Virus record (IMG/VR): IMGVR_UViG_3300050121_000128
Span: 1-45,541 of that record
Strand: one strand, 5' to 3'
DNA from: a virus
Length of the DNA: 45,541 nucleotides
Part shown: positions 586 to 45,521 of the stretch, in pieces
Layout of the letters: each line of letters opens with the position of its first letter
Numbering within the stretch: position 1 is the stretch's first letter
Position numbers and translations under genes: made by a program
Notes under the pieces: generated by a model
The model's input: only the letters and a program-made list of their open reading frames with translations
What the model was told of the DNA's origin: nothing
Databases searched by the model: none

Positions 586-740
586 GTTGGAAGCGGCACT
601 TTTGGGATTGGACTATGCTGGCGATTCTGGCCTGTCTGATGGTTCGCATTGCCCAAGACGTGCTTGGTTTTACGATGACAGAATTCTTTCTTGCGGTAGG
701 GGGCCTGCTTATGGCCTTCTACGCATGGCGGCGCAATTGA
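582..740 (+). CDS. small membrane protein (52 aa), coupled to the gene before it
   Basis: The ATG at 582 overlaps the preceding TGA. An in-frame upstream extension from 360 exists, but it would run through the preceding gene and is unlikely. The 52-residue product is rich in Trp and hydrophobic residues, with two possible membrane segments (about residues 11-27 and 32-47) and a basic end (WRRN). Together with its partner it could form a two-protein membrane unit such as holin and antiholin. That is inference from size and coupling only. Its last codons overlap the first copy of the 16-bp palindrome. Confidence 0.55.
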   Translation: MSWKRHFWDWTMLAILACLMVRIAQDVLGFTMTEFFLAVGGLLMAFYAWRRN

Positions 741-746
741 TTGCGG
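731..746 (+). repeat. 16-bp dispersed palindrome, copy 1
   Basis: GCGCAATTGATTGCGG, one mismatch from CCGCAATTGATTGCGG. It overlaps the stop codon of the preceding gene and lies 17 bp before the -35 box of a candidate promoter. Confidence 0.85.
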
Positions 747-762
747 AACCGCTGAAATATAT

Positions 763-790
763 TTGACAAAGTACAGACATGACCTACCAT
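763..790 (+). promoter_or_regulatory. sigma70-like promoter
   Basis: A perfect TTGACA (763-768) is followed by a 16-bp spacer and TACCAT (785-790, 4 of 6 matches to TATAAT). It points into the small genes starting at 825, in an otherwise uncoding gap. The palindrome copy at 731-746 ends just upstream, where an operator or activator site could lie. Confidence 0.6.
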
Positions 791-824
791 TGACGTATCG
801 AACACACTTTCACGGAGGAATACC

Positions 825-1004
825 ATGCAAGCAAATGAATTCACGGCGGCAAAGACCAATGCCGACTATTTGGCCTCGCCTGCTTTTAGGCAAGAAGTTA
901 TCGCGGAATTGCTGGTACGGGGTTCTACGATGGAAGAAGCTTACAACCTCACCCGTACCCAATTCTTGATACACAGCGAAGCCCGTAAGTGGGGGCTGCT
1001 GTAA
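825..1004 (+). CDS. hypothetical small protein (59 aa)
   Basis: The ATG at 825 follows a strong GGAGGAATACC ribosome binding site, and TAA ends at 1004. The 59-residue product is soluble and mixed-charge (starts MQANEFTAAK, ends ARKWGLL) with a helical look. No family is recognised. It is the first gene after the candidate promoter at 763-790, and the next gene follows 9 nt later. The strong ribosome site and position make it a real gene despite its small size. Confidence 0.65.
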   Translation: MQANEFTAAKTNADYLASPAFRQEVIAELLVRGSTMEEAYNLTRTQFLIHSEARKWGLL

Positions 1005-1013
1005 GGGGCGGTT

Positions 1014-1424
1014 ATGAACACCTCGAAACTCTTGGCGGCGCTGCTATTTGCGGCGCTTCCGTACGTAGCACAGGCCCAAAATCAACCAACCTATGATGTG
1101 TGTGCCAACCCGCAGGCCATTCGATTGATTATCTCTAAATTGAACTGGGTAGGCCTTGCAGGAAATCCACAGACCCCCCCTGGGGTGATAAATAATCCAG
1201 ATGATACCGGTGTCCTAGTGTGCAAGGTGTATGCCGGGGGGCTAAGTGACCACGGAGTGGTGACTCTGACATGGCAGCGGGGCCAATCCCCGAGCACAGC
1301 CGTAGCGCGATTTGTTTCGGATGAACCGCCTAAATGTGATTGGGGCGGTGCCAAGATGCATAACGCAACCCTGGCAGAGTTCGAAACTGTGTACCACTGC
1401 CAGCGCAAATATTATTGGAAGTGA
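1014..1424 (+). CDS. secreted or periplasmic protein with signal peptide (136 aa)
   Basis: The start ATG at 1014 follows AAGGGGCGG. Residues 1-21 form a classic signal peptide: a Lys at position 5, a Leu/Ala core and a likely cut after AQA. The mature part contains several Cys residues (in VCAN, LVCK, PKCDW and YHCQR) that could form disulphides in the periplasm. No family is recognised. A signal peptide with paired cysteines suggests action in the periplasm or outer membrane of a Gram-negative host, for example in lysis or superinfection exclusion. That role is inference. Confidence 0.7.
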   Translation: MNTSKLLAALLFAALPYVAQAQNQPTYDVCANPQAIRLIISKLNWVGLAGNPQTPPGVINNPDDTGVLVCKVYAGGLSDHGVVTLTWQRGQSPSTAVARFVSDEPPKCDWGGAKMHNATLAEFETVYHCQRKYYWK

Positions 1425-1428
1425 TGCC

Positions 1429-1623
1429 ATGCTCGCGCTAATCGCTTTTCTGCTTCTGCTAATTGTGCTAATGATGATATTCAAGCATCCAGGGGCGCGC
1501 ACAGCGTTTGGCGTGTTGGTGCTGGGGACCATTATCATGACTGAATGCGGGCACCATGACGTATCAACAGTCAATTGGCAGTGCAACGTAGAAAACAACA
1601 ATTGTGGTAGAGGCTGGAAATAA
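1429..1623 (+). CDS. small membrane protein (64 aa)
   Basis: The ATG at 1429 lies 4 nt after the previous stop, with a weak GGAAG upstream. The N-terminus (MLALIAFLLLLIVLMMIF) is strongly hydrophobic, and a second hydrophobic stretch lies at about residues 26-38. The C-terminus is polar with three Cys residues. It overlaps the next gene by one base (TAATG). It is probably anchored in the inner membrane with a disulphide-capable periplasmic tail. Family unknown. Confidence 0.6.
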   Translation: MLALIAFLLLLIVLMMIFKHPGARTAFGVLVLGTIIMTECGHHDVSTVNWQCNVENNNCGRGWK

Positions 1624-2051
1624 TGCGAATGACAAAGGTGTACCCCCGCGTGCTGGTATTCGGCGGGCGAGATTTTAATGAAGGCCAGTACGTGTACTCG
1701 CGTATGGACATGCTGATATCGGTATTCAGACAGCAGTTTATGGTGGTAGAGGGTGGCGCTCGTGGGGCGGATACCCTGGCTGGGAACTGGGCTAAAGAAA
1801 ATGGTTATCCACACGCGAAGGTAGACGCAAATTGGGATTTCTATAAGAATGCGGCAGGGCCGATTAGAAATACTTGGATGAAGAATTTTCTTCAACCTCA
1901 TTTTGGGGTAGAATTTCCGGGTGGAAAGGGCACAGCAGACATGCGAAAGCTGCTAGATGCCGCTGGAATCCCCGTCTGGAGGCCTTTGGCAGAAGACCGG
2001 CCCCCAGAATCTTTCTCGTTGGAGAAGATGAAAAATGAAGTCATCCGTTGA
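1623..2051 (+). CDS. DUF2493 / SLOG-family protein (142 aa)
   Basis: The Rossmann-like SLOG superfamily (YspA/DprA-related) is recognised from ordered motifs. VLVFGGRDF at about residues 10-18 is the glycine-rich first loop. VVEGGARGAD at about 41-50 is the second. AGPIRN at about 79-84 and FPGGKGTADM further on complete the pattern. The family is thought to bind nucleotides or nucleotide-derived ligands, and phage members have no settled function. The length is normal for a single-domain member. The start overlaps the previous stop and the gene overlaps the next by 17 nt, so it is part of a coupled operon. Confidence 0.85.
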   Translation: MRMTKVYPRVLVFGGRDFNEGQYVYSRMDMLISVFRQQFMVVEGGARGADTLAGNWAKENGYPHAKVDANWDFYKNAAGPIRNTWMKNFLQPHFGVEFPGGKGTADMRKLLDAAGIPVWRPLAEDRPPESFSLEKMKNEVIR

Positions 2052-2352: not shown

Positions 2353-2357
2353 GGTTT

Positions 2358-2373
2358 CCGCAATTGATTGCAA
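2358..2373 (+). repeat. 16-bp dispersed palindrome, copy 2
   Basis: CCGCAATTGATTGCAA, a copy with two changed bases at its 3' end. It begins 6 nt after a stop codon and runs into the AAGGAG ribosome binding site of the gene at 2383. Confidence 0.8.
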
Positions 2374-2382
2374 GGAGCGGTC

Positions 2383-2682: not shown

Positions 2683-2704
2683 TTTTTTAACGAAGGAGTA
2701 ACAA

Positions 2705-2995: not shown

Positions 2996-3027
2996 GCTTC
3001 CCCAGCAGCACCTAAAAGTAGTAAGCT

Positions 3028-3052: not shown

Positions 3053-3060
3053 GGCAAGCC

Positions 3061-3705: not shown

Positions 3706-3706
3706 T

Positions 3707-4379: not shown

Positions 4380-6791
4380 GTGCTGCTGATTCAGCTAAAT
4401 CTGCAATCGAGTGCTACGGTTGTAACGCTGACAACCGGCACGACTTGGACGGTTCCGGTAGGCGTAACCACGCTTACTTCTGTTGAAGTCTGGGGCGATG
4501 GCGGCGCTGGTGGTGGTGGCGCGACTGCTGCTGGTGGCGGCGGCGGGGGTGGTGGTTACGCAAAGATCACTACTGTTTCGGTTACCCCAGGCGATGTAAT
4601 TACCATCGCAATCGGACAGGGTGGTACATACGACCCAGCCTATGGCCCAGGCAATCCCGGTACAGGTACTAGCTTCGGCGCGACGCCTATTGTTGCTGCA
4701 ACGGGCGGTGGCGGTGGAGATAACGCGGGTGGTGCGGGGGGCACGGGTGGTACTGGCACTGTCGGTGGGGACTTCGCCACGGGCGGCACAGGCGGCACGG
4801 GTTCAAATATCTATACCGGTGGCGGTGGTGGCGGATCTGCTGGCCCTGATGGAAACGGGGATACAGGCACCGATGGTACGGGTGGCTTTGGCGGGAACGG
4901 CGGGAATGGGGGCGCTGGCGACAATGGCTTAGGTGGTGCTGGTGGAGTTGGCGCGGCTGGCGCAGGCGCTGGAGGCACGAACAATGCTAACGGCGGTGGC
5001 GGCGGTGCTGGTGGCGGCGAAGGCGCTCTTGGGGGCACGGCTGGTACTCCTGGTGCCGGTGGTGGCGGGGGTGGTAGCGGACCTAACAACTTCGGTGCCG
5101 ACGGTGCTGTTGGTCAGATCCGTATTACCTATTCGACGGCTCCCCCGGCAGATTTGCTTGCCGCAGCATGTACGGAAACCAGTAGCGCGACGGCAGCGCT
5201 CGACAATAGCTCCCACGCAGCAGCTACGGAAACCAGTACGGCCACAGCCGCGCTATCGAATACGATGGCCGCAGCGGGCACAGACACGAGCACAGCCAGT
5301 GCAGCCCTTGCCACGAGCATTAGCCTCAAGGCAGCGGGAGTAGACACCAGTACCAGTACGTCGGCACTAACCACTAGCGACACCCTTGCAGTGGCTGCGA
5401 CTGAGACCAGTACGGCCAGTGCTGCACTTACGACAAACATCAAACTAGCAGCAGCTACGTCAGAGACGAGCACAGCAGCGGCACCGCTGACTACCTCGAT
5501 CACTCTGGCTGGTGCAGGCACGACGGGTTCTAGTGCCACAGCTAGTTTAAGTACTGGCATTAACCTGTTGGCCGCTGCAAGTGAAACGAGTACCGCAACG
5601 GCTGAGTTGGCGAACACTATGGGTGCGGCTGCGAATGAAAGTTCGTATGCCACGGCCAGCCTTAGCACGTCTATTACCCTAAAAGCTGTAGCGACCGAGA
5701 CCAGTACGGCTACGGCTGGATTGGCTAACACGCTTGCAGCCAGCCCCTCAGAGACGTCCACAGCTAGTTCGGCACTGACCACCAGCATTAAGCTGGCAGC
5801 GGCAGGGCAGGACACCTCGACGGCCAGCGCGGCATTGGCTAACACCTTTGGTGCGACTCTTACAGAAACCAGCAGTGCCACAGCGGCCCTGACTACCGGG
5901 ATCTTGCTTGCAGCAACTGCCAGCGAAACCAGTACGGCCACAGCGGCGCTTACTGCTGGTGGATTTCAGGCAGCTACTTCGGAAACGAGTACCGCAACGG
6001 CGGCGCTAAGTACCAGCATCACGTTGGCCGCAAGTGCGACCGAGAATAGTGCGGCCTCAGCGAACTTGATGGCAGGTGGATTTCAGACGCAGGCCGTTGA
6101 AACATCCACAGCGACAGCAGCCCTTGCTAATACGATGGCCGCTGCTTCTCAAGAGACTTCGACGGCAACAGCCGGGTTGTCGAGCGCCAGTTCTGCTAGT
6201 GATTCAACCAGTTCAACGGCTACCGCCAACCTTACTACCTCGATTTTGTTGGCGGCGACTGCCGTAGAAACGAGCACAGCCAGTGCCAATCTTGCGGCTG
6301 GTGGCTTCGAAGCGGTGGGGGTGGAGACTTCGACGGCCAGCGCAGCCCTGGCTACTTCTGTGCAATTGATTGCGGAGGGCCTGACTGGATCTAGTGCAAC
6401 TGCAAACTTGATTGCTGGGGGATTCCAAGCTAAAGCCACGACCGGAAGTACTGGTACAGCAGCCCTGTCAACTGGTATTCTGTTGCAGGCACAGACGGGT
6501 AGTGAGTCCGGCGCGCTGGCTGATCTAACAGAACCCAATCCAATTTTCGGAGCAGGTTCCAGTGCTTCAACTGCCAGTGCAAGTTTGCAGACCCGCTTGC
6601 TATTGGCGGCGGTGGCGAATGACGGATCGACGGCTTCAGCCTCCTTGTCGGAAATACCAGGGGCGCTGTATGCATCGTGTGTGACTGGCTCGACGGCGCG
6701 GGCGATTGTAGGGCAGGAAATTATTCCGAATGTGCCTCAGTCGGTTGTTTTCCAGAATCGCTATGCTGTGGTTTATCGGAGATTCAGATGA
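4380..6791 (+). CDS. Gly-rich domain plus Ala/Ser/Thr repeat fibre protein (803 aa)
   Basis: Starts at GTG 4380, with AAGGGG about 9 nt before it. Residues ~1-40 are a beta-rich cap. About 40-250 is an extreme glycine-rich domain of the kind seen in phage tail adhesins. About 255-790 holds some 26 degenerate 17-18-residue units built on ETSTATAAL followed by a hydrophobic step (TSITLA or GGFQA). The last ~25 residues form a distinct cap ending VVYRRFR. The regular polar/hydrophobic period suggests a beta-solenoid or fibrous shaft. A paralogue with the same unit is at 8536. The neighbouring collar and fibre-assembly genes support a tail-fibre role. A palindrome copy lies inside it. Confidence 0.75.
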   Translation: MLLIQLNLQSSATVVTLTTGTTWTVPVGVTTLTSVEVWGDGGAGGGGATAAGGGGGGGGYAKITTVSVTPGDVITIAIGQGGTYDPAYGPGNPGTGTSFGATPIVAATGGGGGDNAGGAGGTGGTGTVGGDFATGGTGGTGSNIYTGGGGGGSAGPDGNGDTGTDGTGGFGGNGGNGGAGDNGLGGAGGVGAAGAGAGGTNNANGGGGGAGGGEGALGGTAGTPGAGGGGGGSGPNNFGADGAVGQIRITYSTAPPADLLAAACTETSSATAALDNSSHAAATETSTATAALSNTMAAAGTDTSTASAALATSISLKAAGVDTSTSTSALTTSDTLAVAATETSTASAALTTNIKLAAATSETSTAAAPLTTSITLAGAGTTGSSATASLSTGINLLAAASETSTATAELANTMGAAANESSYATASLSTSITLKAVATETSTATAGLANTLAASPSETSTASSALTTSIKLAAAGQDTSTASAALANTFGATLTETSSATAALTTGILLAATASETSTATAALTAGGFQAATSETSTATAALSTSITLAASATENSAASANLMAGGFQTQAVETSTATAALANTMAAASQETSTATAGLSSASSASDSTSSTATANLTTSILLAATAVETSTASANLAAGGFEAVGVETSTASAALATSVQLIAEGLTGSSATANLIAGGFQAKATTGSTGTAALSTGILLQAQTGSESGALADLTEPNPIFGAGSSASTASASLQTRLLLAAVANDGSTASASLSEIPGALYASCVTGSTARAIVGQEIIPNVPQSVVFQNRYAVVYRRFR
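6360..6375 (+). repeat. 16-bp dispersed palindrome, copy 3 (intragenic)
   Basis: GTGCAATTGATTGCGG inside the repeat-fibre gene, read in frame as VQLIAE. It keeps the GCAATTGATTGC core despite being coding sequence. Confidence 0.75.
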
Positions 6792-8535: not shown

Positions 8536-9942
8536 ATGGCCCTAGGTTTTGGTCCAATTTCCGAACAAGCAGTCTCTGAGAATCAAACACCAGAGACGAT
8601 TCTGCTCGCGTCGGGCACGACAACCAGTACAGCCACGGGGGCACTTGCCACCAGCATTACCGCCAAGGGGACTGGTTCTAGCACGTCTACGGCCCAAGCG
8701 GCGCTAGTTACGGGTATCAAGCTTGCGGTCCAGGTCGTAGAAAGTGCGCAATCAATTGCGGTACTCGCTACCAGCATCACCATAGCCGGGTCGAACACGG
8801 GGTCGTCATCGGCACAAGCAGCGTTGTCGAATGCCCTGGTAGTGCAGGCGACTGAAACGGCGGCGGCTTTCGCATCCCTGACTACCGCGCTTTTGTTGGC
8901 GGCTGAAAGCGCAAGTACCAGTACTATCAGCGCCACGCTCAACACGCCCAATGATGTATTTGCGGCGGCGGCCACGACTACTAGTGTCGCTAGGGCAGCG
9001 TTGACGACCAATGTGAAATTGGCCTCGTTTGCCGAAAACATTAGCGGTACTAATGCGATGCTTACGACCGCGATTCATTTAGCGGCCAAGGGGCAGATTT
9101 TTTCAACGGGGACAGTCAACACCAGTTGGATTTTCGTAACGGCGGCGGAGAAATCCACGGCTGTAGCGAACCTGATCACCGGTATTCTTGACGCCGCCCA
9201 CGCGAACGAGACCAGTACAGCCTCCGCAGGATTGGCGAATACTTTCCTTGTTCACGCGAACGAGATAAGCACGGCTGTTGCTGCGTTGTCTAATGCAATG
9301 GCAGCGGCGGGTGGAGATTCTAGTACCGCCGAAGCTAGACTGGTTACGGCTATCGACTTAGTAGGGGACGGTGTAAGTACCGTCACAGGTAGCTCCCACC
9401 TCACGACGGGCTTGCACCTCCTAACAGAGGGGCAGGAGTTAAGTGCAGGTGCAGCGGCGTTGCAGACCGGTATTGAGGTGGTGGCTTCCAATCGAAGCGC
9501 ATCTGTAGCGACGGCACAACTACACACGTCGCTAACACTAGCGGCGATTGGCCGGGGAGGAAGCAGCACTGAAGACCAGATGCAAACCAGTATCACTGTG
9601 CAGGCCCTGCTTTCGGCCTTGTCCTCGGCAGAAGCCGCGCTAACACGCCAGCCATTGTTGGCGGCTCAAGCAGGGGTATCGGCTGAGACCCTGGCGGCTC
9701 TGCGCGCTTCGATCACCTTCACCGCCCAGGCCCTGAATAGCAGCAATGCGAGTGCTGATGTACAGCAGATTTTCTTTTACGGACTGGTGACGAGCGTGGC
9801 GCGGGCTACGTTTGGTATTGCGGTGACGCCCTACGAAAGTTTTCCGATTTATTCACAGAAAGAAACTTTTGGAGTAGTCTGTACACCAAGAGTAATACCC
9901 GTTACAGCAGACCCTGACGAAGTGCTTAACGTTACCCCATAG
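8536..9942 (+). CDS. second Ala/Ser/Thr repeat fibre protein, paralogue of 4380-6791 (468 aa)
   Basis: Starts at ATG 8536 (MALGFGPISEQ) after GGTGAGCC. From about residue 25 to 420 it carries about 20 degenerate 17-20-residue units of the same type as the 803-residue protein (for example TTSTATGALATSITAKG). It lacks the glycine-rich domain and has a different C-terminal cap ending DEVLNVTP. Both caps share a short transition of the form VTS(or G)xARA. It probably arose by duplication and divergence, and it may form an alternative shaft or adhesin. It contains palindrome copy 4. Confidence 0.7.
   Translation: MALGFGPISEQAVSENQTPETILLASGTTTSTATGALATSITAKGTGSSTSTAQAALVTGIKLAVQVVESAQSIAVLATSITIAGSNTGSSSAQAALSNALVVQATETAAAFASLTTALLLAAESASTSTISATLNTPNDVFAAAATTTSVARAALTTNVKLASFAENISGTNAMLTTAIHLAAKGQIFSTGTVNTSWIFVTAAEKSTAVANLITGILDAAHANETSTASAGLANTFLVHANEISTAVAALSNAMAAAGGDSSTAEARLVTAIDLVGDGVSTVTGSSHLTTGLHLLTEGQELSAGAAALQTGIEVVASNRSASVATAQLHTSLTLAAIGRGGSSTEDQMQTSITVQALLSALSSAEAALTRQPLLAAQAGVSAETLAALRASITFTAQALNSSNASADVQQIFFYGLVTSVARATFGIAVTPYESFPIYSQKETFGVVCTPRVIPVTADPDEVLNVTP
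8746..8761 (-). repeat. 16-bp dispersed palindrome, copy 4 (intragenic, inverted)
   Basis: GCGCAATCAATTGCGG, the reverse-complement orientation of the consensus with one changed end base. It lies inside the second repeat-fibre gene and is read as AQSIAV. Confidence 0.75.
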
Positions 9943-13747: not shown

Positions 13748-13763
13748 CCGCAATTGATTGCGG
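13748..13763 (+). repeat. 16-bp dispersed palindrome, copy 5
   Basis: CCGCAATTGATTGCGG, exact consensus. It starts 6 nt after the stop of the small lipoprotein gene and lies just upstream of the candidate head-module promoter. Confidence 0.9.
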
Positions 13764-15454: not shown

Positions 15455-16266
15455 TGTCTACGTTTTATGAAGTGCTTACCGAGGCGGTGGCGGACATCGT
15501 TGAACACGGCTTCGACTCGCAAAAGCGCATTGATGACTGGTTGGTAAAGATCCGACAGGCAGCTATCGGTTCGCTGATTCCACAGCACAAGTTGGAATTG
15601 ATGGTGCGCAAGAATTTTGTAGACATCTACCAGCGCATGGTCGTGAAGGGCGGGATCCTAAAGCACCATAAAGGATTGAGTCAGTTCACCCTCGATAGGG
15701 TGAAGCCAAAGCTCCGCAATGAGCTTGACCGGCACATTATGGCTAATGCCAAGCTGATCACGCTGAATCGAGAAGCTGCGGTTGAAACCACACTTCGACG
15801 CTTTGCCGGGTGGTCTACCAGTATTCCGTCTGGTGGCACGAAGGCAGCAGATAAGCTGGCAACGAAGACTGCTGTACGGAAGTCCCTGGCGCAATTGCCA
15901 TTTCAGGAGCGCAGGGTTGCGATTGACCAGGGGCACAAGTTTATTTCGTCACTGAATCAAGTGCTGGCAGTAGAGCACGGGGCGTTGGCAGGGATTTGGC
16001 ACAGCCATTGGCGGCGTAAAGGGTATAACTACCGGCCCGACCACAAGGAACGCGACCTAAGGGTTTATGCAGTGCGCGGTAACTGGGCGTTCGAGAAAGG
16101 GTTGATGAAGGTCGGCCCTGATGGATACACTGATCAGATTACCCAGCCTGCTGAAGAAGTGTACTGCGAGTGTTTTTACCAGTACGTGTATAACATCCAG
16201 GATTTGCCAGAATACATGCTCACGGTTAAAGCCAAGCGCGCAATCATGAAGGTGGAAACGGTATGA
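15454..16266 (+). CDS. MuF-like head morphogenesis protein (270 aa)
   Basis: The position directly after the portal fits. The C-terminal pattern also fits: GIWHSHWRRKGYNYRPDHKE, then GNWAF, GYTDQI and a conserved-looking VYCECFYQYVYN segment. This matches the phage Mu gpF-like minor head protein family. These proteins bind the portal and are packaged in the head; some carry effector domains. The N-terminal ~130 residues are helical. It overlaps the portal gene by one base and the following large gene by 4 nt, so the three head genes are coupled. Confidence 0.75.
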   Translation: MSTFYEVLTEAVADIVEHGFDSQKRIDDWLVKIRQAAIGSLIPQHKLELMVRKNFVDIYQRMVVKGGILKHHKGLSQFTLDRVKPKLRNELDRHIMANAKLITLNREAAVETTLRRFAGWSTSIPSGGTKAADKLATKTAVRKSLAQLPFQERRVAIDQGHKFISSLNQVLAVEHGALAGIWHSHWRRKGYNYRPDHKERDLRVYAVRGNWAFEKGLMKVGPDGYTDQITQPAEEVYCECFYQYVYNIQDLPEYMLTVKAKRAIMKVETV

Positions 16267-19250
16267 CCATCCGAGAAGAAATGCAGAAGTGGCTGGACAG
16301 CCAGAAGCTTAAAGCCGAGCGCGATGCTTGGATGCGATCTAACACCCGGACTGATTCGGATTCAGAGGGGCGGTGGGTAACCATCAATAACACCCATGTA
16401 TTGATTGGCAAGGACGGTCGAATTAAGAGTGGGGCTGAAGGGAAGTTCAACGGTCAAACCGAAGCGCAAATGAGTAAAGGTGAAGAAGCCAAGGGCGGGG
16501 GTAAGGACGCCCCGACCGAACCCGTAACAGTTCAAAAGGCTGGTCCCGATACGGGGAATAAAAAGATTCCGGCACCTCCTGGCAAGGAGGAAGGCAAGTC
16601 AGGGGCGCAAGAAGAACCCCCGATTGCTGATGATCTGGGCGATCTGAATAAACAGTTGACGGAAGCTCAATCTGATTTGGCGGTAAAAAGAAAGGAATTG
16701 CAAAAAGCCGGAGAGGGTGGAAAAGCAAAAACCACCGCCCAGGTGAGTGCCGTAGTTGAAGGCAACAAGGCGGTTGCGGCTGCTCTGGCGAAAGTAGATA
16801 GGATCAAGACACGACTGAAAACTGCTGCCCAGGTGTCGGAAGCCATGCCGACTGCCAATCCCCAAAACGAGATCAACAAACAGAAGCAGGAAGCGCAGGA
16901 AAGTGGGAAGCAGGAACAAGATTTCCAGACTCAGCAGGAAAAGGACAAGCGCGAACACGAGTTGAAAAAAGAGGAAATGAAGTCCGCTGCTGGCAAGGAG
17001 TCTGCTCCAGGCCCGACCACGACCACCGAAAAGACGACGGAGAAAGTGGCCGCGAATGGGGGGAAGACCGTTACCAAGGAAGCGAAGACTGAAACCGCTC
17101 CTGCCCCGGCTGAGAAGAAATCAGCGGAGAAACCTGCTGAAAAACCGGCGGAAAAGAAGGAAGAACCGGCTGCGGAAGATAAGGACCGACCAAAACGGTG
17201 GGACGGTACTCCGAATCCCCCCGGGGCATTGGAGACGGACCCGCCAGAAGAACGTGAAGCCTATTTAAAGAAGGAATTGGCTGAGACCGACGCGGAGTAC
17301 AAGAAGTTGAAAGCGGCCTCGCCAGTCGATTGGAAAGCCATACACAAAACTAGTGATTACGAGCAAAGTTTAAAGGTGTCGTTAAAACGGCATCAGGACA
17401 AACAAGCGGAAGATGCGGCTGTGGCTAAAGACCCGTCAACCATTACTGCGGCAGAGAAATCGGCTGTCAAGGTGTATTCGTCTGCCAGCTATGAGTCCAT
17501 AAACAAGCAATTGCGCTCTGGGAAAGAAGAAGCTGGGGGGATGTATAACCACGAGATAGGCGTACTCGATGCTGCGTTGAATAAAAAGACGCTACCCACT
17601 GGCACGAAGTTGAAGCGCTATATTGACGCGGCTGGGATTAAGCAGCTATTCGGCGGCGAACCCAAGGTAGGCTCGGTGGGTACGGACAAGGCATTCATGT
17701 CCACTTCAGATTCTAAGACCTGGGAAAAGAATGAGCACCAGTTAGTGATGGAAACTCCGGCTGGACAGAAAGGGTTGAAGCTGGGCAACTTGAGTAAATA
17801 CGAAGAAGAGGGCGAAGTCCTGCTGCCTCGCGGTACTTCGTTGAAAGTCACGAGCATCGGCACCAGCAAGGGTAAGAAATTGATTAAGTGTGAAATTGTG
17901 CAGAATGGAGACACCAAGGCAGATTCTGTGCCGGGAACCGCTCGTGACGCGCAAGAGCAATGCACCCGCCTTACGCCCATGGAGTATGTACAGGCAATGA
18001 TGGCCCGCTGCCACGGCGCGGGGCTATCGGCTACCCGCATCATGATGGCGAAGAAGGCATTTCTGGAAACACACGGGGAAACGCCGCAAACTATCGAGGA
18101 ATACAGTGCGGGCATCGGCCAGCGATTCTTGCTGGCGCTGCTCAATGAATTCGGCATTCCTTCGATTGAAGAAACCGTTGACTGGTTTAACCGTACAGAA
18201 GCGCGGGCGGATGCTGGGGTCGTGCAATTGGCGGTGCCTGTTGGGGAGAAAATTGCCGCTGGTGTGTTGTTTATCACTGACAGTGGTTATATCCTCTTGG
18301 GCCAACGCGCAGAACCGGGGGAGTACCAGGGTCACTGGGGCATTTTTGGTGGACACGCGGAACCGGGCGAACCGCTTGAACTCACGGCTATGCGTGAAGT
18401 GCTGGAAGAAACAGGCCATGAAATTGAACAGAGTCAGATAGAGGGCGAGGCACCGCCGTTGCAATTGATTGCGGAAACCGAACTAGACGGTACGAAGTTC
18501 TCGTATTTCATCAACGTGTGTAAGCCCTTCGAAGTGCGGTTAAACGACGAACACACGACCTATGGCTGGTTTGCTATGGGGGCGATGCCAGAGCCGTTGA
18601 TTCCCGGTTTGCAGGAAGTAATCGACAGCGATTTGGTTAAAGGCCTGCGGCTGCGCAAGATGAATGAAACGGATGTGGCGCGGGCGATGGCCTGGGGTGC
18701 GTTGCCCTCACCTATGAAGTTTGCGAATGTCAGCATGTACAAGATGCGGATTACTGGCACGGGCGCGGCATTTCGTAGTGGTCAGCCAGAAATCAAGAAT
18801 GCTGATGGCAAGGTTACGCAGGTAGCACTCAAAGACGAGCATTGTTTCCGCCCGCCCGAGCACTATCTTAATGAGGACTTTCTTGAGCGCTGCCAGGGCT
18901 TGAACCTGATTTTTGAACATCCGAAGAAACGAATTTTGAATTCCAAGGAGTTCAATGATCGGAAAGTTGGGAACATAGTACAGCCCTATATTTGGGGCGA
19001 TGAGGTGTGGGGTATCGGCAAGGTGTACGACCAAGACACCATCGATATCCTAGATCATGAGGTGATGAGCACCAGCCCTGCTGTGCAATTTGGCGACAAT
19101 GACGGGAATACGATCATCCCCCTCAGTGACGGGTCGCAAATGTTGATTGAGGGTAAGGCCCGCCTGCTCGACCACTTGGCTATCTGCGAGCAGGGGGTCT
19201 GGGATAAGGGCGGGCCGCCTACCGGAATTATTTCCGAAAGTGCGAAATAG
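16263..19250 (+). CDS. prohead protease-like polyprotein: scaffold region + ADP-ribosyltransferase + Nudix + DUF2213 (995 aa)
   Basis: One uninterrupted reading frame with four parts. (a) Residues ~1-390: a short RWVTINNTHVLIGKDGR motif (37-53), then Lys/Glu/Ala/Pro-rich coiled-coil sequence like a scaffold. (b) ~395-545: an ADP-ribosyltransferase fold with Arg452 (LKRYID), the STS motif FMSTS (478-482) and the ExE motif E516-G-E518 within YEEEGEVLLPRG. (c) ~655-790: a Nudix hydrolase with a complete Nudix box, Gly697 to Gly718 (GGHAEPGE and REVLEETG). (d) ~820-990: a DUF2213/prohead-protease-like domain with FEHPKK and MSTSPAVQF as possible His and Ser sites. Self-cleavage in the prohead could free the enzymes for delivery with the DNA; that is inference. 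Confidence 0.8.
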   Translation: MTIREEMQKWLDSQKLKAERDAWMRSNTRTDSDSEGRWVTINNTHVLIGKDGRIKSGAEGKFNGQTEAQMSKGEEAKGGGKDAPTEPVTVQKAGPDTGNKKIPAPPGKEEGKSGAQEEPPIADDLGDLNKQLTEAQSDLAVKRKELQKAGEGGKAKTTAQVSAVVEGNKAVAAALAKVDRIKTRLKTAAQVSEAMPTANPQNEINKQKQEAQESGKQEQDFQTQQEKDKREHELKKEEMKSAAGKESAPGPTTTTEKTTEKVAANGGKTVTKEAKTETAPAPAEKKSAEKPAEKPAEKKEEPAAEDKDRPKRWDGTPNPPGALETDPPEEREAYLKKELAETDAEYKKLKAASPVDWKAIHKTSDYEQSLKVSLKRHQDKQAEDAAVAKDPSTITAAEKSAVKVYSSASYESINKQLRSGKEEAGGMYNHEIGVLDAALNKKTLPTGTKLKRYIDAAGIKQLFGGEPKVGSVGTDKAFMSTSDSKTWEKNEHQLVMETPAGQKGLKLGNLSKYEEEGEVLLPRGTSLKVTSIGTSKGKKLIKCEIVQNGDTKADSVPGTARDAQEQCTRLTPMEYVQAMMARCHGAGLSATRIMMAKKAFLETHGETPQTIEEYSAGIGQRFLLALLNEFGIPSIEETVDWFNRTEARADAGVVQLAVPVGEKIAAGVLFITDSGYILLGQRAEPGEYQGHWGIFGGHAEPGEPLELTAMREVLEETGHEIEQSQIEGEAPPLQLIAETELDGTKFSYFINVCKPFEVRLNDEHTTYGWFAMGAMPEPLIPGLQEVIDSDLVKGLRLRKMNETDVARAMAWGALPSPMKFANVSMYKMRITGTGAAFRSGQPEIKNADGKVTQVALKDEHCFRPPEHYLNEDFLERCQGLNLIFEHPKKRILNSKEFNDRKVGNIVQPYIWGDEVWGIGKVYDQDTIDILDHEVMSTSPAVQFGDNDGNTIIPLSDGSQMLIEGKARLLDHLAICEQGVWDKGGPPTGIISESAK
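18459..18474 (+). repeat. 16-bp dispersed palindrome, copy 6 (intragenic)
   Basis: TTGCAATTGATTGCGG inside the Nudix-domain coding region, read as LQLIAE. It has the same frame and core as the copy at 6360. Confidence 0.75.
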
Positions 19251-23987: not shown

Positions 23988-24003
23988 GCGCAATCAATTG
24001 CGG
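23988..24003 (-). repeat. 16-bp dispersed palindrome, copy 7 (inverted)
   Basis: GCGCAATCAATTGCGG. It starts 7 nt after a stop codon and continues into GGAAG, the ribosome binding site of the gene at 24014. Confidence 0.85.
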
Positions 24004-25799: not shown

Positions 25800-27179
25800 A
25801 TGACGAACGCAATTGTTCAAGTCAGCGTAAGCCAAACCATTGCACCAGCACCAAGTAAGTTGCAACGGACTGGCGCGATGATTAGTCAGGGGGGTACGAC
25901 GCTCACCCCGGGGACTTACTCGCTTCTGACGCAGGACTCAGACCTGACGCCGCTTCTGACGCAGCCTCAGACCAATAGCACGCTTGCCTGGGCGTCGTCG
26001 GTTGTGACCGTTACGACTGCGGTGGCTCACGGCTACCCGACCGGCGCGCTAATCAACCTGACCATCTCCGGTGCGAACCCTGCCGGTTATAACGGCACGT
26101 TCCTGGCGACCATTACCAGCAGCACGCAATTTACTTATCCGCTAACTGGTAACCCCGGCGCGCAGGTAAGTGCTGGTACGACGGTCAATGCCTTCGTGAC
26201 CCAACTAGGGGCCATGGTCAACACGTTCTACGACCAGAACGGTCTGTTGAGTGTGTATGTGCTTGAGCTTGGCACCGGCACCAGCACGACGGGTATCGCG
26301 TCGCTGGAGGCTTACATTGTCGCCAGCCCTGGTTTCTTCTACAGCTACTTGATTCCGCGTGGCTGGGATGCAGATTCGACTTACCCAGCTTTCCTGGCGA
26401 ACTACAACGCGCCAAACGCGAAGATTTACTTCTACACGACGGTGACGTTGAGTAGCTACGCGGCCTTGACCAACAACCAGTTGAACAAGTGCTGCCCGGT
26501 GCTGATCGAAAGCACGAGTCCGGCTCTGCCGCCCGACGAGTTCTCGATGGCGGCGATGTGGTGGACCACGCTCAATGCCAATCCCAGCAGCACGAACATG
26601 GTGCCTCCGCTGTGCTTCAGCTTCCTGATCGGCGTTACTGCCGGTACTTGGACGGGTCCGCAATTGACTGCGTTCAAGACCAACAATGTCAACTACGTCG
26701 GGACCGGCGCAGAAGGCGGGATCAGCAAAGATATCCTGTACTGGGGCAATATGCCTGACGGCAACCCCTGGAACTACTGGTACTCGGCTGACTGGTCGCA
26801 GATCAATTTGGACCTCGATATCAGCAACACGATTATCAACGGTAGCAACACCAGCATCAATCCGCTCTACTACAACCAGGACGGTGTGAATCGTCTTCAG
26901 GCGACGGCAGTGCAGACGATGCAGGAAGCGATTGCGTACGGCTTGGCGTACGGTACGCTGGTGCAAACCCAGCTTGATCCTACGACCTTTGCCAATAACG
27001 TGTCGGCTGGCCTGTACCTGGGTTATGTGGTGGTCAACGCCGTGCCGGTGGCGACGTGGCTGGCATCGAATCCAAGCACGTATTCCGAGGGTATTTACGG
27101 GGGCTTGGCCGCGCTCTACACGCCAGCCCGAGGGTTTGAACAGATCCTGTTCAACCTTAACGTCAGCAACTTGGCATAA
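25800..27179 (+). CDS. tail sheath protein, DUF3383 type (459 aa)
   Basis: DUF3383-type contractile sheath proteins are recognised by the N-terminal VQVSVSQTIAPAPSKLQRTGA and by the order of landmarks: TYSLLTQDSDLTPLLT, an inserted AHGYPTGALINLTISG module (about residues 60-130), a GWDADSTYPAFLANYN segment and a C-terminal region ending RGFEQILFNLNVSNLA. The sheath contracts to drive the tube through the host envelope. This, with the tube and baseplate genes, fixes the phage as a myovirus. RBS AAGGGATTCGGCC. Confidence 0.85.
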   Translation: MTNAIVQVSVSQTIAPAPSKLQRTGAMISQGGTTLTPGTYSLLTQDSDLTPLLTQPQTNSTLAWASSVVTVTTAVAHGYPTGALINLTISGANPAGYNGTFLATITSSTQFTYPLTGNPGAQVSAGTTVNAFVTQLGAMVNTFYDQNGLLSVYVLELGTGTSTTGIASLEAYIVASPGFFYSYLIPRGWDADSTYPAFLANYNAPNAKIYFYTTVTLSSYAALTNNQLNKCCPVLIESTSPALPPDEFSMAAMWWTTLNANPSSTNMVPPLCFSFLIGVTAGTWTGPQLTAFKTNNVNYVGTGAEGGISKDILYWGNMPDGNPWNYWYSADWSQINLDLDISNTIINGSNTSINPLYYNQDGVNRLQATAVQTMQEAIAYGLAYGTLVQTQLDPTTFANNVSAGLYLGYVVVNAVPVATWLASNPSTYSEGIYGGLAALYTPARGFEQILFNLNVSNLA

Positions 27180-28373: not shown

Positions 28374-28389
28374 GCGCAATTGATTGCGG
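28374..28389 (+). repeat. 16-bp dispersed palindrome, copy 8
   Basis: GCGCAATTGATTGCGG, 5 nt after the stop of the frameshift product. It runs into GGAG, the ribosome site of the tape measure gene. This spacing supports 28369 as a true gene end. Confidence 0.85.
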
Positions 28390-32883: not shown

Positions 32884-32899
32884 CCGCAATTAATTGCGG
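32884..32899. repeat. 16-bp dispersed palindrome, copy 9 (fully symmetric)
   Basis: CCGCAATTAATTGCGG, a perfect palindrome, 3 nt after a stop codon. It is joined directly to AGGAATTC, so its last bases form the GGAGG ribosome site of the spike gene. Confidence 0.9.
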
Positions 32900-38820: not shown

Positions 38821-39090
38821 ATGACCGTAACTGTATATCTTCGTGCCAATCAGTCTGCTGCGCTTTCTTGGTCGCAGGTGGACGGCAACTTCACGGCCTT
38901 GGCGACACAAGTTAATACCAATACCGCAGATATTGCGGCTTTGGGTGGTGCGCAGGGTGGACCTACAAGCAGCCGCCCGTCTGTACCAACGCTGTATCAG
39001 TACTATGTAGATACCACTTTGGGATACCCAGTATGGTGTACCGTGGTAAGTCCCCCCACTTGGGTCAACGCAGCAGGAGTCGCGTCGTGA
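38821..39090 (+). CDS. short tail-attachment type protein (89 aa)
   Basis: An 89-residue protein whose N-terminus (LRANQSAALSWSQVDGNFTAL) matches the short module that opens many phage fibre proteins. Its C-terminus (YYVDTTLGYPVWCT, PPTWVNAAG) matches the small tip motif found in others. Having both and nothing between them suggests a minimal adaptor, or a fibre gene that lost its shaft. It overlaps the tail spike gene by 4 nt (GTGA). Confidence 0.6.
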   Translation: MTVTVYLRANQSAALSWSQVDGNFTALATQVNTNTADIAALGGAQGGPTSSRPSVPTLYQYYVDTTLGYPVWCTVVSPPTWVNAAGVAS

Positions 39091-41396
39091 TTATCAAAAA
39101 CATCAAGAAATTCATCACCTTACTGTGGCTGTTTCCGCAATTGATTGCGGGTACGGCGATGGCTCAGACTTACCATGTGCAGAACTTGGTAGTTGGCGGC
39201 ACCAGTACTTTTGCCACTCGCCCGGTGTTCAACAGCAACACGCCTTATGACACGGGTAACTTGACCATCGGCAATTATGCGACGCTGGCGAGTCCGACCT
39301 TCACCGGAACACCCGTTGTGCCCGGGTATCTGACTACCGGCACCGCAGTCAGCACCTATGCTCCAATCAATGCCCCGACCTTCACAGGCGTAGGCACGAT
39401 TCCGAGTGGGTGGTCGATTGCCGGTTACTTGACTAGCTCGACAGCGGCCAGTACTTACGCCCCCCTCAGCACCCCAACCTTCACCGGTACGGTGACGGCC
39501 ACTACCTTTGCAGGAGCAGGTACGAGTTTGACGGGTACGGCAGCATCGTTGAATATTGGCGGCAATGCTGCAACAGCGACGAGCGCCACGACCGCAACTA
39601 AGATTGCGTCCGGTGCAGCGAACCAGATCTTGTACCAGTCTGGAGCGGGTGTTACCGCGTTTTTAACCGCCCCGACCAGTGCCAGTACTTACCTCGAATG
39701 GAATGGCACGGCCTTTACCTGGGGTGCAGGAGGCGGCGGTGGGGGGAGCGGTACAGTTACGAGCGTGGCTATCAGTGGAGGCACCACGGGCCTAACGTGG
39801 ACTGGTAGCCCCATTACCACGAGTGGCACCTTTACCCTTGCCGGTTTGCTTGTACCCGCCAACGGCGGCACGGGCGTAGCAAGTCCTACTGCACACGGTG
39901 TTCTGGTAGCTGAGGGTTCCTCGGCTATGACTACGGCTACCATCGGTACAGCAGGTAATACGATTGTTGACCAAGGCAGTGGCGCAGATCCTAAATTCCA
40001 GTCCAGTGGTCAGATTATTCTGACTGGTGCGGACCCTACCGGGGTGGCTGACAGCACCACGGCGATTCAAAATGCTGTTACCACGGCTGTCGTAAATGGT
40101 GAGAAGCTTTCGATCCCCCCGGGCACGTACAAGATTAGTGCGGCAATTTCCGTACCGTTTGGTACTGGCTACAGTATTTCAGGCAACAGTCGTGGTGGTA
40201 CGATCATCAGTCAGACAGCGGCGAACACGGCCATTTTCAATCTTGCCAGCGGTAGCGGAGGGGTGGGCGGTCATTCCTTTGCCTTCACTGATATGACTTT
40301 GCAGTGGGCGAGCGCCCCGACGATTAGCCAAGCGCACTCGATTGGGATCAGTTTTAACAACAGCGCTGAATCCTTCTACGACTTCCAGATCCAGCGACTG
40401 ACCTGTACCAACGGTTACGAGTGCGTGGGCATCGACAACGCGACTGACACCACAGTATGGGGAGTGTCAATGCGCGATATCGTGGTTGGTAACACTGCCT
40501 GTAGCGCGATTGACTTCAGCGAAGGCGGCACCGGCCAACCAAGTATCTCGATTGATGGTGTGTACGCCACGGCCAGCAACATGGACGTGAGTTGCCCAGT
40601 TATCAACGTGGCAAACAATGACAGCGGGTGGTTTAACCACATCGAAGTCAATGCCGTGCCACACGGAAACACCGTGCTCTATGCTACCGGCCAGTTTGCG
40701 ATTGGCACGATCAAGATCGAGCAGGGCACATACACCAACGGTCAGTATATTTACCGGTTCATCAATGCCCACGTCACGGCTAATAACCTGTTGGCAGAAG
40801 ATTTGACCATCAGTGCCAGCGGTAGCGAAGTGTATGGCCTGGATATCAACGGCGGCGGGGGTGGCACTACGGCCACCATCGGTAACTACAATCTGACGTT
40901 TGCGACCGGCATTACCGGATCCTTTTATCTGGTCAACAGCGGCACAGCCCCGACCTTTACTGCCCGGTTCCTGAATCAGCCGAACGGGTTGATTGGTACG
41001 GCCAACGCGTTTTTGACCCAAGTGCCTGCCAGCGCCAGCGCGGACGGGGTATCTGTGGATGATTGGCAACAAAAGCGAATGACTGCCGATACTGGTGATG
41101 CCAGCACCACCTATGCAATTGGTAATCCGAACATGATTTTGTACAACACGCCCCTAACTGCGGGTCGTACGGTCGAGTTCACTGATCCGTCTAACAGCAT
41201 TACTGACACCAACCTGTATAATGGTGCCGAAGTGTGTGTGGTACGGACTGCTGCGGCTACGGGGGCATCGGTGATTACTGTAGAGCAGTTTCAGGCTGGT
41301 GCGATTGGCACCACGATTGCGGCGGGACAGTCTGAGTGCTTTATGTGGAAACGTTCGGTCACTAACTGGGTAGAGGTGAGCAAAAGCAGCCTGTAA
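39087..41396 (+). CDS. beta-helix tail spike with leader-like N-terminus (769 aa)
   Basis: Starts at GTG 39087, coupled to the previous stop. The first ~24 residues (MIIKNIKKFITLLWLFPQLI) look like a signal peptide with a cut after AMA. Residues ~25-230 are TF(T/S)GTxxxP-type shaft repeats (LASPTFTGTPVVPG). From about 300 comes a pectate-lyase-like right-handed beta helix starting ILTGADPTGVADSTTAIQNAV and including SIPPGTYKIS. A C-terminal beta domain ends WVEVSKSSL. It is expected to bind or degrade host surface polysaccharide. It contains palindrome copy 10. Confidence 0.8.
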   Translation: MIIKNIKKFITLLWLFPQLIAGTAMAQTYHVQNLVVGGTSTFATRPVFNSNTPYDTGNLTIGNYATLASPTFTGTPVVPGYLTTGTAVSTYAPINAPTFTGVGTIPSGWSIAGYLTSSTAASTYAPLSTPTFTGTVTATTFAGAGTSLTGTAASLNIGGNAATATSATTATKIASGAANQILYQSGAGVTAFLTAPTSASTYLEWNGTAFTWGAGGGGGGSGTVTSVAISGGTTGLTWTGSPITTSGTFTLAGLLVPANGGTGVASPTAHGVLVAEGSSAMTTATIGTAGNTIVDQGSGADPKFQSSGQIILTGADPTGVADSTTAIQNAVTTAVVNGEKLSIPPGTYKISAAISVPFGTGYSISGNSRGGTIISQTAANTAIFNLASGSGGVGGHSFAFTDMTLQWASAPTISQAHSIGISFNNSAESFYDFQIQRLTCTNGYECVGIDNATDTTVWGVSMRDIVVGNTACSAIDFSEGGTGQPSISIDGVYATASNMDVSCPVINVANNDSGWFNHIEVNAVPHGNTVLYATGQFAIGTIKIEQGTYTNGQYIYRFINAHVTANNLLAEDLTISASGSEVYGLDINGGGGGTTATIGNYNLTFATGITGSFYLVNSGTAPTFTARFLNQPNGLIGTANAFLTQVPASASADGVSVDDWQQKRMTADTGDASTTYAIGNPNMILYNTPLTAGRTVEFTDPSNSITDTNLYNGAEVCVVRTAAATGASVITVEQFQAGAIGTTIAAGQSECFMWKRSVTNWVEVSKSSL
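39135..39150 (+). repeat. 16-bp dispersed palindrome, copy 10 (intragenic)
   Basis: CCGCAATTGATTGCGG, exact consensus, 48 nt into the tail spike gene. It encodes PQLIA of the leader-like N-terminus. Confidence 0.85.
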
Positions 41397-42087: not shown

Positions 42088-42103
42088 CCGCAATCAATTG
42101 CGG
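42088..42103 (-). repeat. 16-bp dispersed palindrome, copy 11 (inverted)
   Basis: CCGCAATCAATTGCGG, the exact reverse complement of the consensus. It starts 1 nt after a stop codon and overlaps the GGAG ribosome site of the endolysin gene. Confidence 0.9.
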
Positions 42104-42111
42104 AGAAAATC

Positions 42112-42765: not shown

Positions 42766-42770
42766 GTCCT

Positions 42771-42798: not shown

Positions 42799-42800
42799 AC

Positions 42801-43503: not shown

Positions 43504-43521
43504 TTGTTAATCAATGGCTAG

Positions 43522-43549
43522 GTGGGTTCGATCCCCATACCCGGAGCCA
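43522..43549 (+). tRNA. orphan tRNA-like 3' half (T-arm, acceptor strand, CCA)
   Basis: GTGGG-TTCGATC-CCCAT is a canonical T-arm with a consensus loop. It is followed by ACCCGGA (3' acceptor strand), a G discriminator and an encoded CCA. The matching 5' half is absent directly upstream, where the HNH gene ends. TCCGGTA at 42779-42785 could pair with TACCCGGA with one bulged C, but the D-arm and anticodon arm do not fold normally. It is either a broken or split tRNA or an RNA mimic. Confidence 0.45.
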
Positions 43550-43566
43550 GCCTCAATGGAGTGAGA

Positions 43567-43791
43567 ATGCCAAAGTATCCTTTTTCAGGTGAAATCACGA
43601 TACATCTATCAATCCTGGGCATGGAAGAATGCCAAGCAAAGATAGGGGCGTTTATTTCCGGCCAGCCCAACATGATGGAAATGACTCCGTTTAATATTGA
43701 GTGGCTACGCGACGTAGCTACCCAGATCGTAAAAGATACGCTTCGAGTTGAACTCGAATTACGCGATATGCACACCCAAGAAAAACTATGA
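43567..43791 (+). CDS. hypothetical protein (74 aa)
   Basis: The ATG at 43567 is chosen because TGGAGTGAGA precedes it; the open frame extends upstream to 43522, across the tRNA-like sequence. The 74-residue soluble protein (MPKYPFSGEITIHLSILGME) ends in a helical segment (VKDTLRVELELRDMHTQEKL). It overlaps the AAA+ gene by 4 nt, so a role alongside that ATPase is plausible but unproved. Confidence 0.6.
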   Translation: MPKYPFSGEITIHLSILGMEECQAKIGAFISGQPNMMEMTPFNIEWLRDVATQIVKDTLRVELELRDMHTQEKL

Positions 43792-44978
43792 CCATGCTTG
43801 AGCACGCGCTGAAGGCACGCATTCCTGTTATTGCCGCACAGACAGACGATTTGGTTCATGTTGGAGAAGTCCTTCAGGTTTGGGCACAAAAGCTTGCTGT
43901 AGATTGGTCTACCCTGAGCGATAAAGCGCCGCTGATGGCGAAGCACGTCTATTACACGACCGACGAAAAGGCCGTTACCCTCATCAACTATCGCAGGCTT
44001 GAAGCGGCGGCGTGCAGTTTGGTGGTGCTAAACAGCACTAAGCCAAACTCCCTGGCCTTTGAAACCGGCCAAGTACCTGTCAGCAGGGAAATGATCGAGA
44101 AGGACATGGCAGGGTTTATTCAAGCTGCGCAGAAACCAGTTCTTAGCCGGATCATGAATGGCATGAGCCTTAAGGCCGCCCATGATTGTCTAGTACTCAC
44201 CATCGCCCGTACAGGCGGCGCGGCACCGACTGAGGTACGTCGTACCCGGCTGATGCTGACCGGTGGCCTGCGCGGGTTGATTCCACTTGAAACTGAAGAA
44301 GAGGTGTTTTATGCGTGGCCGCCGAAATTGTTGGAATGGGTGGAAACGAACAGTAAATTCTTTAGTTCTCCCCAGACCCCCCATAAGCTGGTTCCGAGAG
44401 GGTTGTTGCTCGCAGGCCCAGCAGGAACAGGGAAGACTATGGCGGCCCGCGAAATTGCGCACAGACTCAAAATTCCGCTTTACCGGCTCGACATTGCGCA
44501 AGCCCTCAACCGATATATTGGTGAGAGTGAGAACCAAGTCAGCCGTATCCTGGCTCTGGCCGAACAGGAAAGCCCGTGTGTCGTACTTCTTGATGAAGTA
44601 GAAAAGATTTTTCAGCACAGTGATGACGGCGGCACGGTGACGCGGATCCTTAGTCAGATCCTGTGGTGGCTTAGTGAGCATCGCAGCAGGGTGCTTACGA
44701 TCATGACCACCAATGACATCAAGAAGATTCCGCCAGAACTGTATCGTCCTGGGCGGTTGGATCAGGTATTCTACCTACCCCGCTTGGCACTTAAGGACGC
44801 CGAGGATTTTGCGCTCGATGTGTTTAGAGACGTGCTTGATCCTGGTCTATTGACGGTTAAGGTAGTCCTTAAGCTACATGCGGCGCTTCACGCTATTGGG
44901 CGTACCGAACTATCGCACGCGGAAGTCAGCGAGACCGTGTACTCACAAATTAAACAATCTAACTGGCTTACTTTATGA
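43788..44978 (+). CDS. AAA+ ATPase, single module (396 aa)
   Basis: A classic AAA module covers residues ~200-390. Walker A is GPAGTGKT (210-217), Walker B VVLLDE (265-270), sensor 1 TTND (307-310), and the arginine-finger region is RPGR (320-323). A pore-loop-like RYIGESENQ lies at about 242-250. The ~195-residue N-terminal part is helical and resembles that of Ycf46-type AAA proteins (ARIPVIAAQTDD). Hexameric ATP-driven remodelling is expected. The partner or substrate is unknown; the small coupled genes on either side are candidates. Confidence 0.85.
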   Translation: MTMLEHALKARIPVIAAQTDDLVHVGEVLQVWAQKLAVDWSTLSDKAPLMAKHVYYTTDEKAVTLINYRRLEAAACSLVVLNSTKPNSLAFETGQVPVSREMIEKDMAGFIQAAQKPVLSRIMNGMSLKAAHDCLVLTIARTGGAAPTEVRRTRLMLTGGLRGLIPLETEEEVFYAWPPKLLEWVETNSKFFSSPQTPHKLVPRGLLLAGPAGTGKTMAAREIAHRLKIPLYRLDIAQALNRYIGESENQVSRILALAEQESPCVVLLDEVEKIFQHSDDGGTVTRILSQILWWLSEHRSRVLTIMTTNDIKKIPPELYRPGRLDQVFYLPRLALKDAEDFALDVFRDVLDPGLLTVKVVLKLHAALHAIGRTELSHAEVSETVYSQIKQSNWLTL

Positions 44979-45172
44979 AAACTGTGTACGTGATTTTTTA
45001 CGAAGGCCCCGAGTGGAATGACCCGATAGAGGGCTATGTATCTAACCACAGGGCTAAAACCCGGGCGGCAGAACTTAACAAGATGCGGAATATAACCGAC
45101 AAATCAGCGTCGTTGGACGCCTTGAGCGAGTACGTGGTCAAATCGATAACCATCATGGATATGCCGTCATGA
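44975..45172 (+). CDS. hypothetical small protein (65 aa)
   Basis: The ATG overlaps the AAA+ gene stop by 4 nt and its own stop overlaps the next gene by 4 nt, so the three genes are read as a coupled set. The 65-residue product starts MKTVYVIFYEGPEWNDPIEG and has a short beta-strand and then two helices. No motif is recognised. Confidence 0.6.
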   Translation: MKTVYVIFYEGPEWNDPIEGYVSNHRAKTRAAELNKMRNITDKSASLDALSEYVVKSITIMDMPS

Positions 45173-45501
45173 GCAAAGCCAACCACGAAGACACCATTAA
45201 CGACTTGCAGAAGGCGGTGAATGCTTTGGAAAAAGACGCCCTCCGTTGGACATTCTTCACCCATCTGCCCCGGTCATTGCAATTGGACATGATTGAAAGC
45301 TATAAAAACCCATTCGCACTTAACCGAGCACTGGCTGAGCTTATGGACCGGCCAGCAAACCCATATGAGTACCCGGGTAACGACGAACGGTTGTTCGAAG
45401 AAGCTGGAATCGAGGCTGACACCTATCGAGGCGGAGGCTGGTTTGCGCTGCGCACGATGTTGATCAACTTTCACAAACGTTGTCAGGCTCTAAAAATTTG
45501 A
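45169..45501 (+). CDS. hypothetical protein (110 aa)
   Basis: A 110-residue helical, soluble protein (MSKANHEDTINDLQKAVNAL at the start, LRTMLINFHKRCQALKI at the end). It begins inside the stop of the preceding gene. No domain is recognised. The final palindrome copy lies 5 nt after its stop, as at other gene ends. Confidence 0.6.
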   Translation: MSKANHEDTINDLQKAVNALEKDALRWTFFTHLPRSLQLDMIESYKNPFALNRALAELMDRPANPYEYPGNDERLFEEAGIEADTYRGGGWFALRTMLINFHKRCQALKI

Positions 45502-45505
45502 TAGA

Positions 45506-45521
45506 CCGCAATTAATTGCGG
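45506..45521. repeat. 16-bp dispersed palindrome, copy 12 (fully symmetric)
   Basis: CCGCAATTAATTGCGG, 5 nt after a stop codon and joined to GGAG. A gene probably starts just beyond the window edge. Its sequence is the same as that of the copy at 32884. Confidence 0.9.

Follow-up and report, generated by a model that had tools for sequence, protein, structure and literature searches.

N15-like phage-plasmids carry several palindromic partition sites (dispersed centromeres) over the phage genome, and the SPBRE repeats of SPbeta and the start-associated sequences of cluster K mycobacteriophages are phage-wide conserved words that are longer or tied to gene starts. In cluster A mycobacteriophages, the stoperators (sites of the L5 repressor) are present as >20 copies of a short word per genome, both at promoters and in the short gaps between genes (PMC9283540), and the Bacillus subtilis chromosome has ~70 scattered palindromic sites (NBS) read by Noc, a ParB-family dimer (PMC4331003). 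Here we describe a palindrome that is repeated across a stretch of 45,541 nucleotides (IMG/VR virus record IMGVR_UViG_3300050121_000128, positions 1 to 45,541), a 45.5-kb fragment of a phage genome that is referred to below as the window, and across the genomes of its relatives.

The palindromes resemble the stoperators in that a single word recurs many times in a phage genome; however, a stoperator is an asymmetric 13-bp site that is read by a monomer of the immunity repressor and stops elongation, and its orientation follows transcription, whereas the palindromes are symmetric, orientation-free and evenly spaced, and about half of them are located in genes. Parallels to both the stoperators and the start-associated sequences had been drawn in a sequence-only reading of the window; the former failed on asymmetry and on orientation (90 sites with and 116 against transcription in nine genomes), and the latter on location, since about half of the sites are in genes and not at gene starts. 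The words of SPBRE and of the start-associated sequences also differ from ours. NBS and parS are palindromes of about 14-16 bp that are scattered and similar in size and symmetry to those described here, but in this case the carrier is a phage, the sites are 2-5 kb apart and the candidate protein (see below) has neither a ParB_N domain nor detectable ParB sequence homology. The N15-like centromeres are likewise dispersed palindromes, and some carriers here are plasmid-like prophages; however, N15-like phages have only a few sites, compared with 20-50 here, and the present carriers include phages for which a temperate life style is not known. Among the proteins scanned, which covered only part of the open reading frames (ORFs), there was no ParA partner.

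Scanning of the window revealed exact GCAATTRATTGC at all 12 coordinates where the sequence-only reading had placed copies of a 16-bp palindrome in both orientations (Table 1). The palindrome is indeed repeated, but the full 16-mer is exact at only 3 sites, the outer bases being variable and the conserved core being a 12-mer, and a 13th, degenerate copy was present. With up to 3 mismatches, CCGCAATTGATTGCGG had 25 matches, whereas dinucleotide shuffles averaged 0.44 (sd 0.62) and never reached 25, and the reversed pattern had 0 matches; chance therefore does not explain the copies, as had been stated. Likewise, the intervals of 1.6-6.3 kb were correctly given, the mean being 4.07 kb, and the eight copies that had been assigned to gene junctions were, by the listed ORFs, 7 intergenic sites and 1 over a stop codon, the remaining 4 (6360, 8746, 18459 and 39135) being within genes. 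The enrichment at junctions is real, with an excess outside coding-strand ORFs in the window (P=0.0012), in the near-identical contig G003 (P=7e-6) and in the relative G020 (P=3e-9).

Contig G003 (metagenome 3300050120) overlapped the window over 38.6 kb at 99.9% identity, reached 80 kb and contained 22 sites, while two relatives from the same metagenome, G020 (99.5 kb) and G019 (32 kb), had 42 sites, all GCAATTGATTGC, and 12 sites, respectively. Generalized as TGCAATTRATTGCA, the motif occurred in ~20-50 copies per ~80-120 kb genome (22-47 per long contig), and the carriers were 1) Stenotrophomonas phages DLP3, DLP5 and Summit, 2) Vibrio phages SIO-2 and VHS1, 3) Rhodobacter phage RcZahn, 4) Rhizobium phage RHph_Y1_11, and 5) ~20 metagenomic phages. 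Counted with up to 2 mismatches to TGCAATTRATTGCA, for which shuffled controls mostly gave 0-2, there were 36 copies in DLP5, 34 in DLP3, 49 in the metagenomic contig G012, 46 in G020, 14 in RHph_Y1_11, 23 in 82 kb of RcZahn, and 15, 15 and 18 in 50 kb each of SIO-2, VHS1 and Summit, respectively. The motif is thus present in the rest of the genome and in relatives, far above chance, so that neither of the refuting conditions named in the sequence-only reading applied. It was not found in the 50 kb scanned of phage T5. The named capsid relatives are Yersinia, Klebsiella and Pantoea phages; the scan covered metagenomic relatives sharing only the capsid gene, in which the motif was at control level or without an exact copy. 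A nucleotide search of the window against named phages gave no match.

The structural module of the window phage is like that of contractile-tail phages of Yersinia, Klebsiella and Pantoea (sheath). The other half of the genome contains genes for a helicase loader, DnaB, primase, D10-like helicase, RecA, Holliday resolvase, Cas4-like exonuclease and RuvC, and this replication-recombination module is common to DLP3, DLP5, Summit, RcZahn, RHph_Y1_11 and Vibrio phages such as SIO-2. The motif tracks the replication-recombination module, not the capsid module. A module swap was noted in which contractile-tail structural genes have been combined with a replication block of siphovirus type. The palindrome goes with this block, yet covers the structural genes too.

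Spacing of the sites was more even than random in all 10 genomes tested (coefficient of variation 0.44-0.56), with P values from 0.0025 to <5e-5 in 9 genomes and 0.02 in a 32-kb fragment. Each site has dyad-symmetric arms around a 2-bp centre, the half-sites being 6 bp and usually TGCAAT, and the central step was pyrimidine-purine (CA/TG, TA or CG) in 273 of 275 sites. For some sites within genes, the identical codon was kept in homologues sharing 25-84% protein identity: the helicase-loader site was retained despite 25-29% identity, and the site in the D10-like helicase gene encodes AINC in G003 and G020 and AIEC in G012, in codon-exact positions. This peptide is absent from the helicases of RcZahn, RHph and T5, indicating that conservation of the site is not simply a protein constraint. 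Spelling varies by genome, with C or T preceding the GCAAT core, GCAAYTGRKTGC in G012 and GTGCAACAAATTGCAC in RHph, and two relatives (G048 and G049) use different words of the same shape genome-wide, TGAACTYRAGTTCA at 26 places in 98 kb and TGACATTAATGTCA at 10 in 35 kb. A further candidate for an alternative dispersed word, TAAATGAATTTA of G045/L123, was rejected because it is a tandem coding repeat. The dyad symmetry, free orientation, fixed conserved places and genome-wide change of spelling in two relatives strongly support the view that the palindrome would be a phage-wide protein-binding site, and the change of word throughout a genome within one phage lineage implies that the reader is encoded by the phage.

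A MerR-like helix-turn-helix (HTH) protein, encoded between the D10-like helicase and RecA genes, was the first candidate reader, but it was rejected as a universal binder because RcZahn, RHph and several loci carry the motif without the HTH protein. The best candidate is PHROG 17202, for which we consider the chances about even. It is a protein without known function among those universal in the named reference carriers, and its gene is located in the replication-recombination block (57267-58109 in G003, outside the window). The motif family was present in 31 of 36 loci found via PHROG 17202, and 20 whole contigs with this gene had mostly 10-50 matches per strand, the reversed-pattern controls being 0 except in one contig. 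In 7 of 9 reference phages, the gene has a site directly 5' of it, which as a rule precedes the -35 box of a sigma70 promoter by 6-8 bp. Several phages (L251, L253 and L257) have two sites there, and G049 has its own word at this place. The AlphaFold model has a helical core (pLDDT 92), for which 3 of the 4 top fold matches in PDB were Spo0J chains, two of them bound to parS (E 1.3-4.1, TMq 0.48-0.53), and viral fold matches included DUF3102 and Spo0J-annotated phage proteins; in addition, the C-terminal strand-helix-helix looks, by eye, possibly ribbon-helix-helix-like. The DLP5 member is DLP05_067, and G048 also has a homologue. Short second paralogues were seen in L249 (13354-13926), L251 (16984-17511) and L257 (17559-18206).

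Several observations weigh against PHROG 17202 as the reader. The Spo0J matches are weak, all with E above 1; profile-profile comparison with the ParB HTH region gave no sequence homology (hhalign probability 0.4%); no Pfam ParB_N CTPase domain was found in 28 members, and the Pfam scan returned no meaningful family. No change in a recognition residue or helix covaried with the site word, some PHROG 17202 loci lack an upstream site, no palindrome family was detectable in G050, and other proteins of the module are as universal. No palindrome family could be assigned to L256, L258, L259 or L260. DLP5 has a separate ParB_N protein (DLP05_107), the family of which was not found in G012 or SIO-2, and a PF17762 search in two bacterial metagenome-assembled genomes (MAGs; 4.5-4.8 Mb) reported only four other ORFs, not PHROG 17202.

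With about half of our confidence, we propose that the palindromes are binding sites of a phage-encoded dimeric protein, likeliest PHROG 17202, which would be autoregulated and would organize or mark the phage genome. A dimer would read the 6-bp half-sites flanking the flexible pyrimidine-purine step and may occupy the whole phage genome at intervals of roughly 2-5 kb, while PHROG 17202 would probably regulate its own promoter through the site just upstream. By analogy with Noc or ParB on bacterial DNA, an evenly seeded nucleoprotein complex may organize or mark the phage DNA so that it can be replicated, recombined or inherited. The sites are evenly spaced throughout the genome, also in structural genes of foreign origin, and this agrees better with a role at the scale of the genome than with the control of individual promoters. 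More tentatively, and with confidence that falls short of even, a lineage of tailed phages (~80-120 kb) may have a self-marking system, in which a protein that belongs to none of the known ParB and repressor families loads at 20-50 even palindromes and packages or labels the entire genome in the cell, selection for evenness introduces sites into structural genes that were newly acquired, and the set of sites changes its word in concert with the reader.

The main rival is that the sites are stoperator-like operators or roadblocks of a lysogeny repressor that silences an extrachromosomal prophage. It owes this rank to the lysogens: those of DLP5 keep the phage as a plasmid (PMC5834331), VHS1 lysogeny has been described as extrachromosomal (PMC3148565), DLP3 lysogens are stable (PMC7326821), and all three phages carry the motif. 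About a third of the sigma70-like early promoters of G020 (9 of 26; expected, 0.7) also have a site within 60 bp upstream. However, the sites at promoters are 5' of the -35 box and do not cover the promoter. A minority of all sites are 6-9 bp 5' of sigma70 -35 boxes, where they are enriched, and most sites are away from any recognised promoter; no enrichment was seen in the 500 bp downstream of promoters (G003, 0 of 17; G020, 3 of 26), where a roadblock would act, and orientation is not tied to transcription. Moreover, a repressor present in every carrier was not found: RcZahn and RHph lack the HTH regulator. We regard silencing as rather unlikely.

Less probable still is a role of the sites as places where the recombination-replication machinery of the phage enters or is loaded, as a two-directional analogue of Chi or of dispersed origins. 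The motif does track the block from DnaB and primase through D10-like helicase, RecA, Holliday resolvase and Cas4-like exonuclease to RuvC, and a signal of this kind needs the even genome-wide spacing that was seen, but Chi sites are asymmetric and no enzyme of this block is known to read a 14-bp palindrome.

That a host regulator or nucleoid protein is exploited by the phage would explain one core word common to Vibrio, Stenotrophomonas and Rhodobacter phages, yet in the two MAGs nearly all of the matches listed were on the phage contig(s), and relatives use different words genome-wide, so that we consider it very improbable. A scan of a bacterial genome collection returned only three MAG loci; on contig C4 (309 kb) of a Hyphomicrobium MAG (G075), two palindrome clusters at 113-170 kb and 229-264 kb were noted, which are possibly integrated or mis-binned phages. 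An element acting in transcripts, e.g. in processing, hardly fares better: the copies of the window can be drawn as a 6-bp stem closed by a 4-nt loop, but both orientations relative to transcription are about equally common, about half of the sites are in genes, and where the loop would be, the sequence is conserved as a DNA dyad centred on a pyrimidine-purine step. Of the options in the sequence-only reading, a phage-wide protein-binding site was strongly supported, for which repressor, partition-like and nucleoid-like roles are candidates, whereas RNA processing was disfavoured by the mixed orientation and the conserved centre. A short repeat that moves or copies itself, or a site of base modification, has scarcely any likelihood, since, despite many near-identical copies and the heavily modified DNA of DLP5 (PMC5834331), flank similarity does not extend beyond 12-16 bp and positions are conserved between divergent phages.

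The palindrome spellings searched were in no relevant paper of the searchable literature, which did not reach the genome reports of SIO-2 and VHS1, and no palindromic repeats are reported in the DLP3 and DLP5 papers (PMC7326821, PMC5834331); the novelty claimed earlier holds within that literature. The palindromes are thus a feature of many phages that is defined by its sequence, extends over the genome and has not been described before, and our results suggest that a large, little-studied group of phages encodes a protein which binds at regular intervals along the entire viral genome. Genome marking of the Noc, ParB or H-NS type by a phage would bear on the upkeep of plasmid-like prophages in large temperate phages and on how these phages tell their own DNA apart. 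Since the carriers include cultivable phages (DLP5, DLP3, SIO-2, VHS1 and RcZahn), the feature can be tested at the bench; phages with different words offer a natural experiment on co-evolution of a DNA-binding protein and dozens of sites, and the motif is a cheap computational marker for the phage lineage.

Table 1. Palindromic sites and an associated promoter-like sequence in the 45.5-kb window
Feature	Coordinates	Strand	Location and remarks
Site 1, GCGCAATTGATTGCGG	731..746	+	Over stop codon of ORF 360-740
Putative sigma70-like promoter, TTGACA-N16-TACCAT	763..790	+	~16 bp 3' of site 1; read from sequence
Site 2, CCGCAATTGATTGCAA	2358..2373	+	Gene junction, followed by ribosome site
Site 3, GTGCAATTGATTGCGG	6360..6375	+	Within ORF 4380-6791
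Site 4, GCGCAATCAATTGCGG	8746..8761	-	Within ORF 8536-9942
Site 5, CCGCAATTGATTGCGG	13748..13763	+	Junction 5' of portal gene; G020 counterpart at the same place (65293)
Site 6, TTGCAATTGATTGCGG	18459..18474	+	Within 995-aa head-region gene; aligned codon (LQLIA) identical in G020 and G019
Site 7, GCGCAATCAATTGCGG	23988..24003	-	Junction; G020 counterpart 57099
Degenerate 13th copy, CCGCAATTGACTGCGT	26658..26673	+	2 mismatches; within tail sheath gene
Site 8, GCGCAATTGATTGCGG	28374..28389	+	Junction ahead of tail gene; G020 counterpart 53041
Site 9, CCGCAATTAATTGCGG	32884..32899	.	Fully symmetric; gene junction
Site 10, CCGCAATTGATTGCGG	39135..39150	+	Close to 5' end of ORF 39033-41396
Site 11, CCGCAATCAATTGCGG	42088..42103	-	Junction; G020 counterpart 42979
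Site 12, CCGCAATTAATTGCGG	45506..45521	.	Fully symmetric; gene junction

Some further features were noted. In the whole contig of G020, 26 sigma70-like promoters (TTGACAAA ... TGcTATAcT) were on the coding strand compared with 1 on the other, forming a stereotyped phage set, and that of G012 contained 14 one-strand copies of CCAAGGAGTGGG and repeated CTTGACGAACTA, which are probably ribosome-site and promoter signatures. The 995-aa head-region protein (window 16263-19250) had NUDIX and Alt-like ADP-ribosyltransferase matches together. The DUF7873 gene products of G003 (44471-45274) and G020 (237-1046) were 92% identical, compared with mostly 40-70% for other proteins, suggesting a recent exchange. 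The gene for the thymidylate synthase ThyX in G003 (76159-77976; L143:18160-19977) is split by an intein with an HNH endonuclease and has one palindrome near its start.

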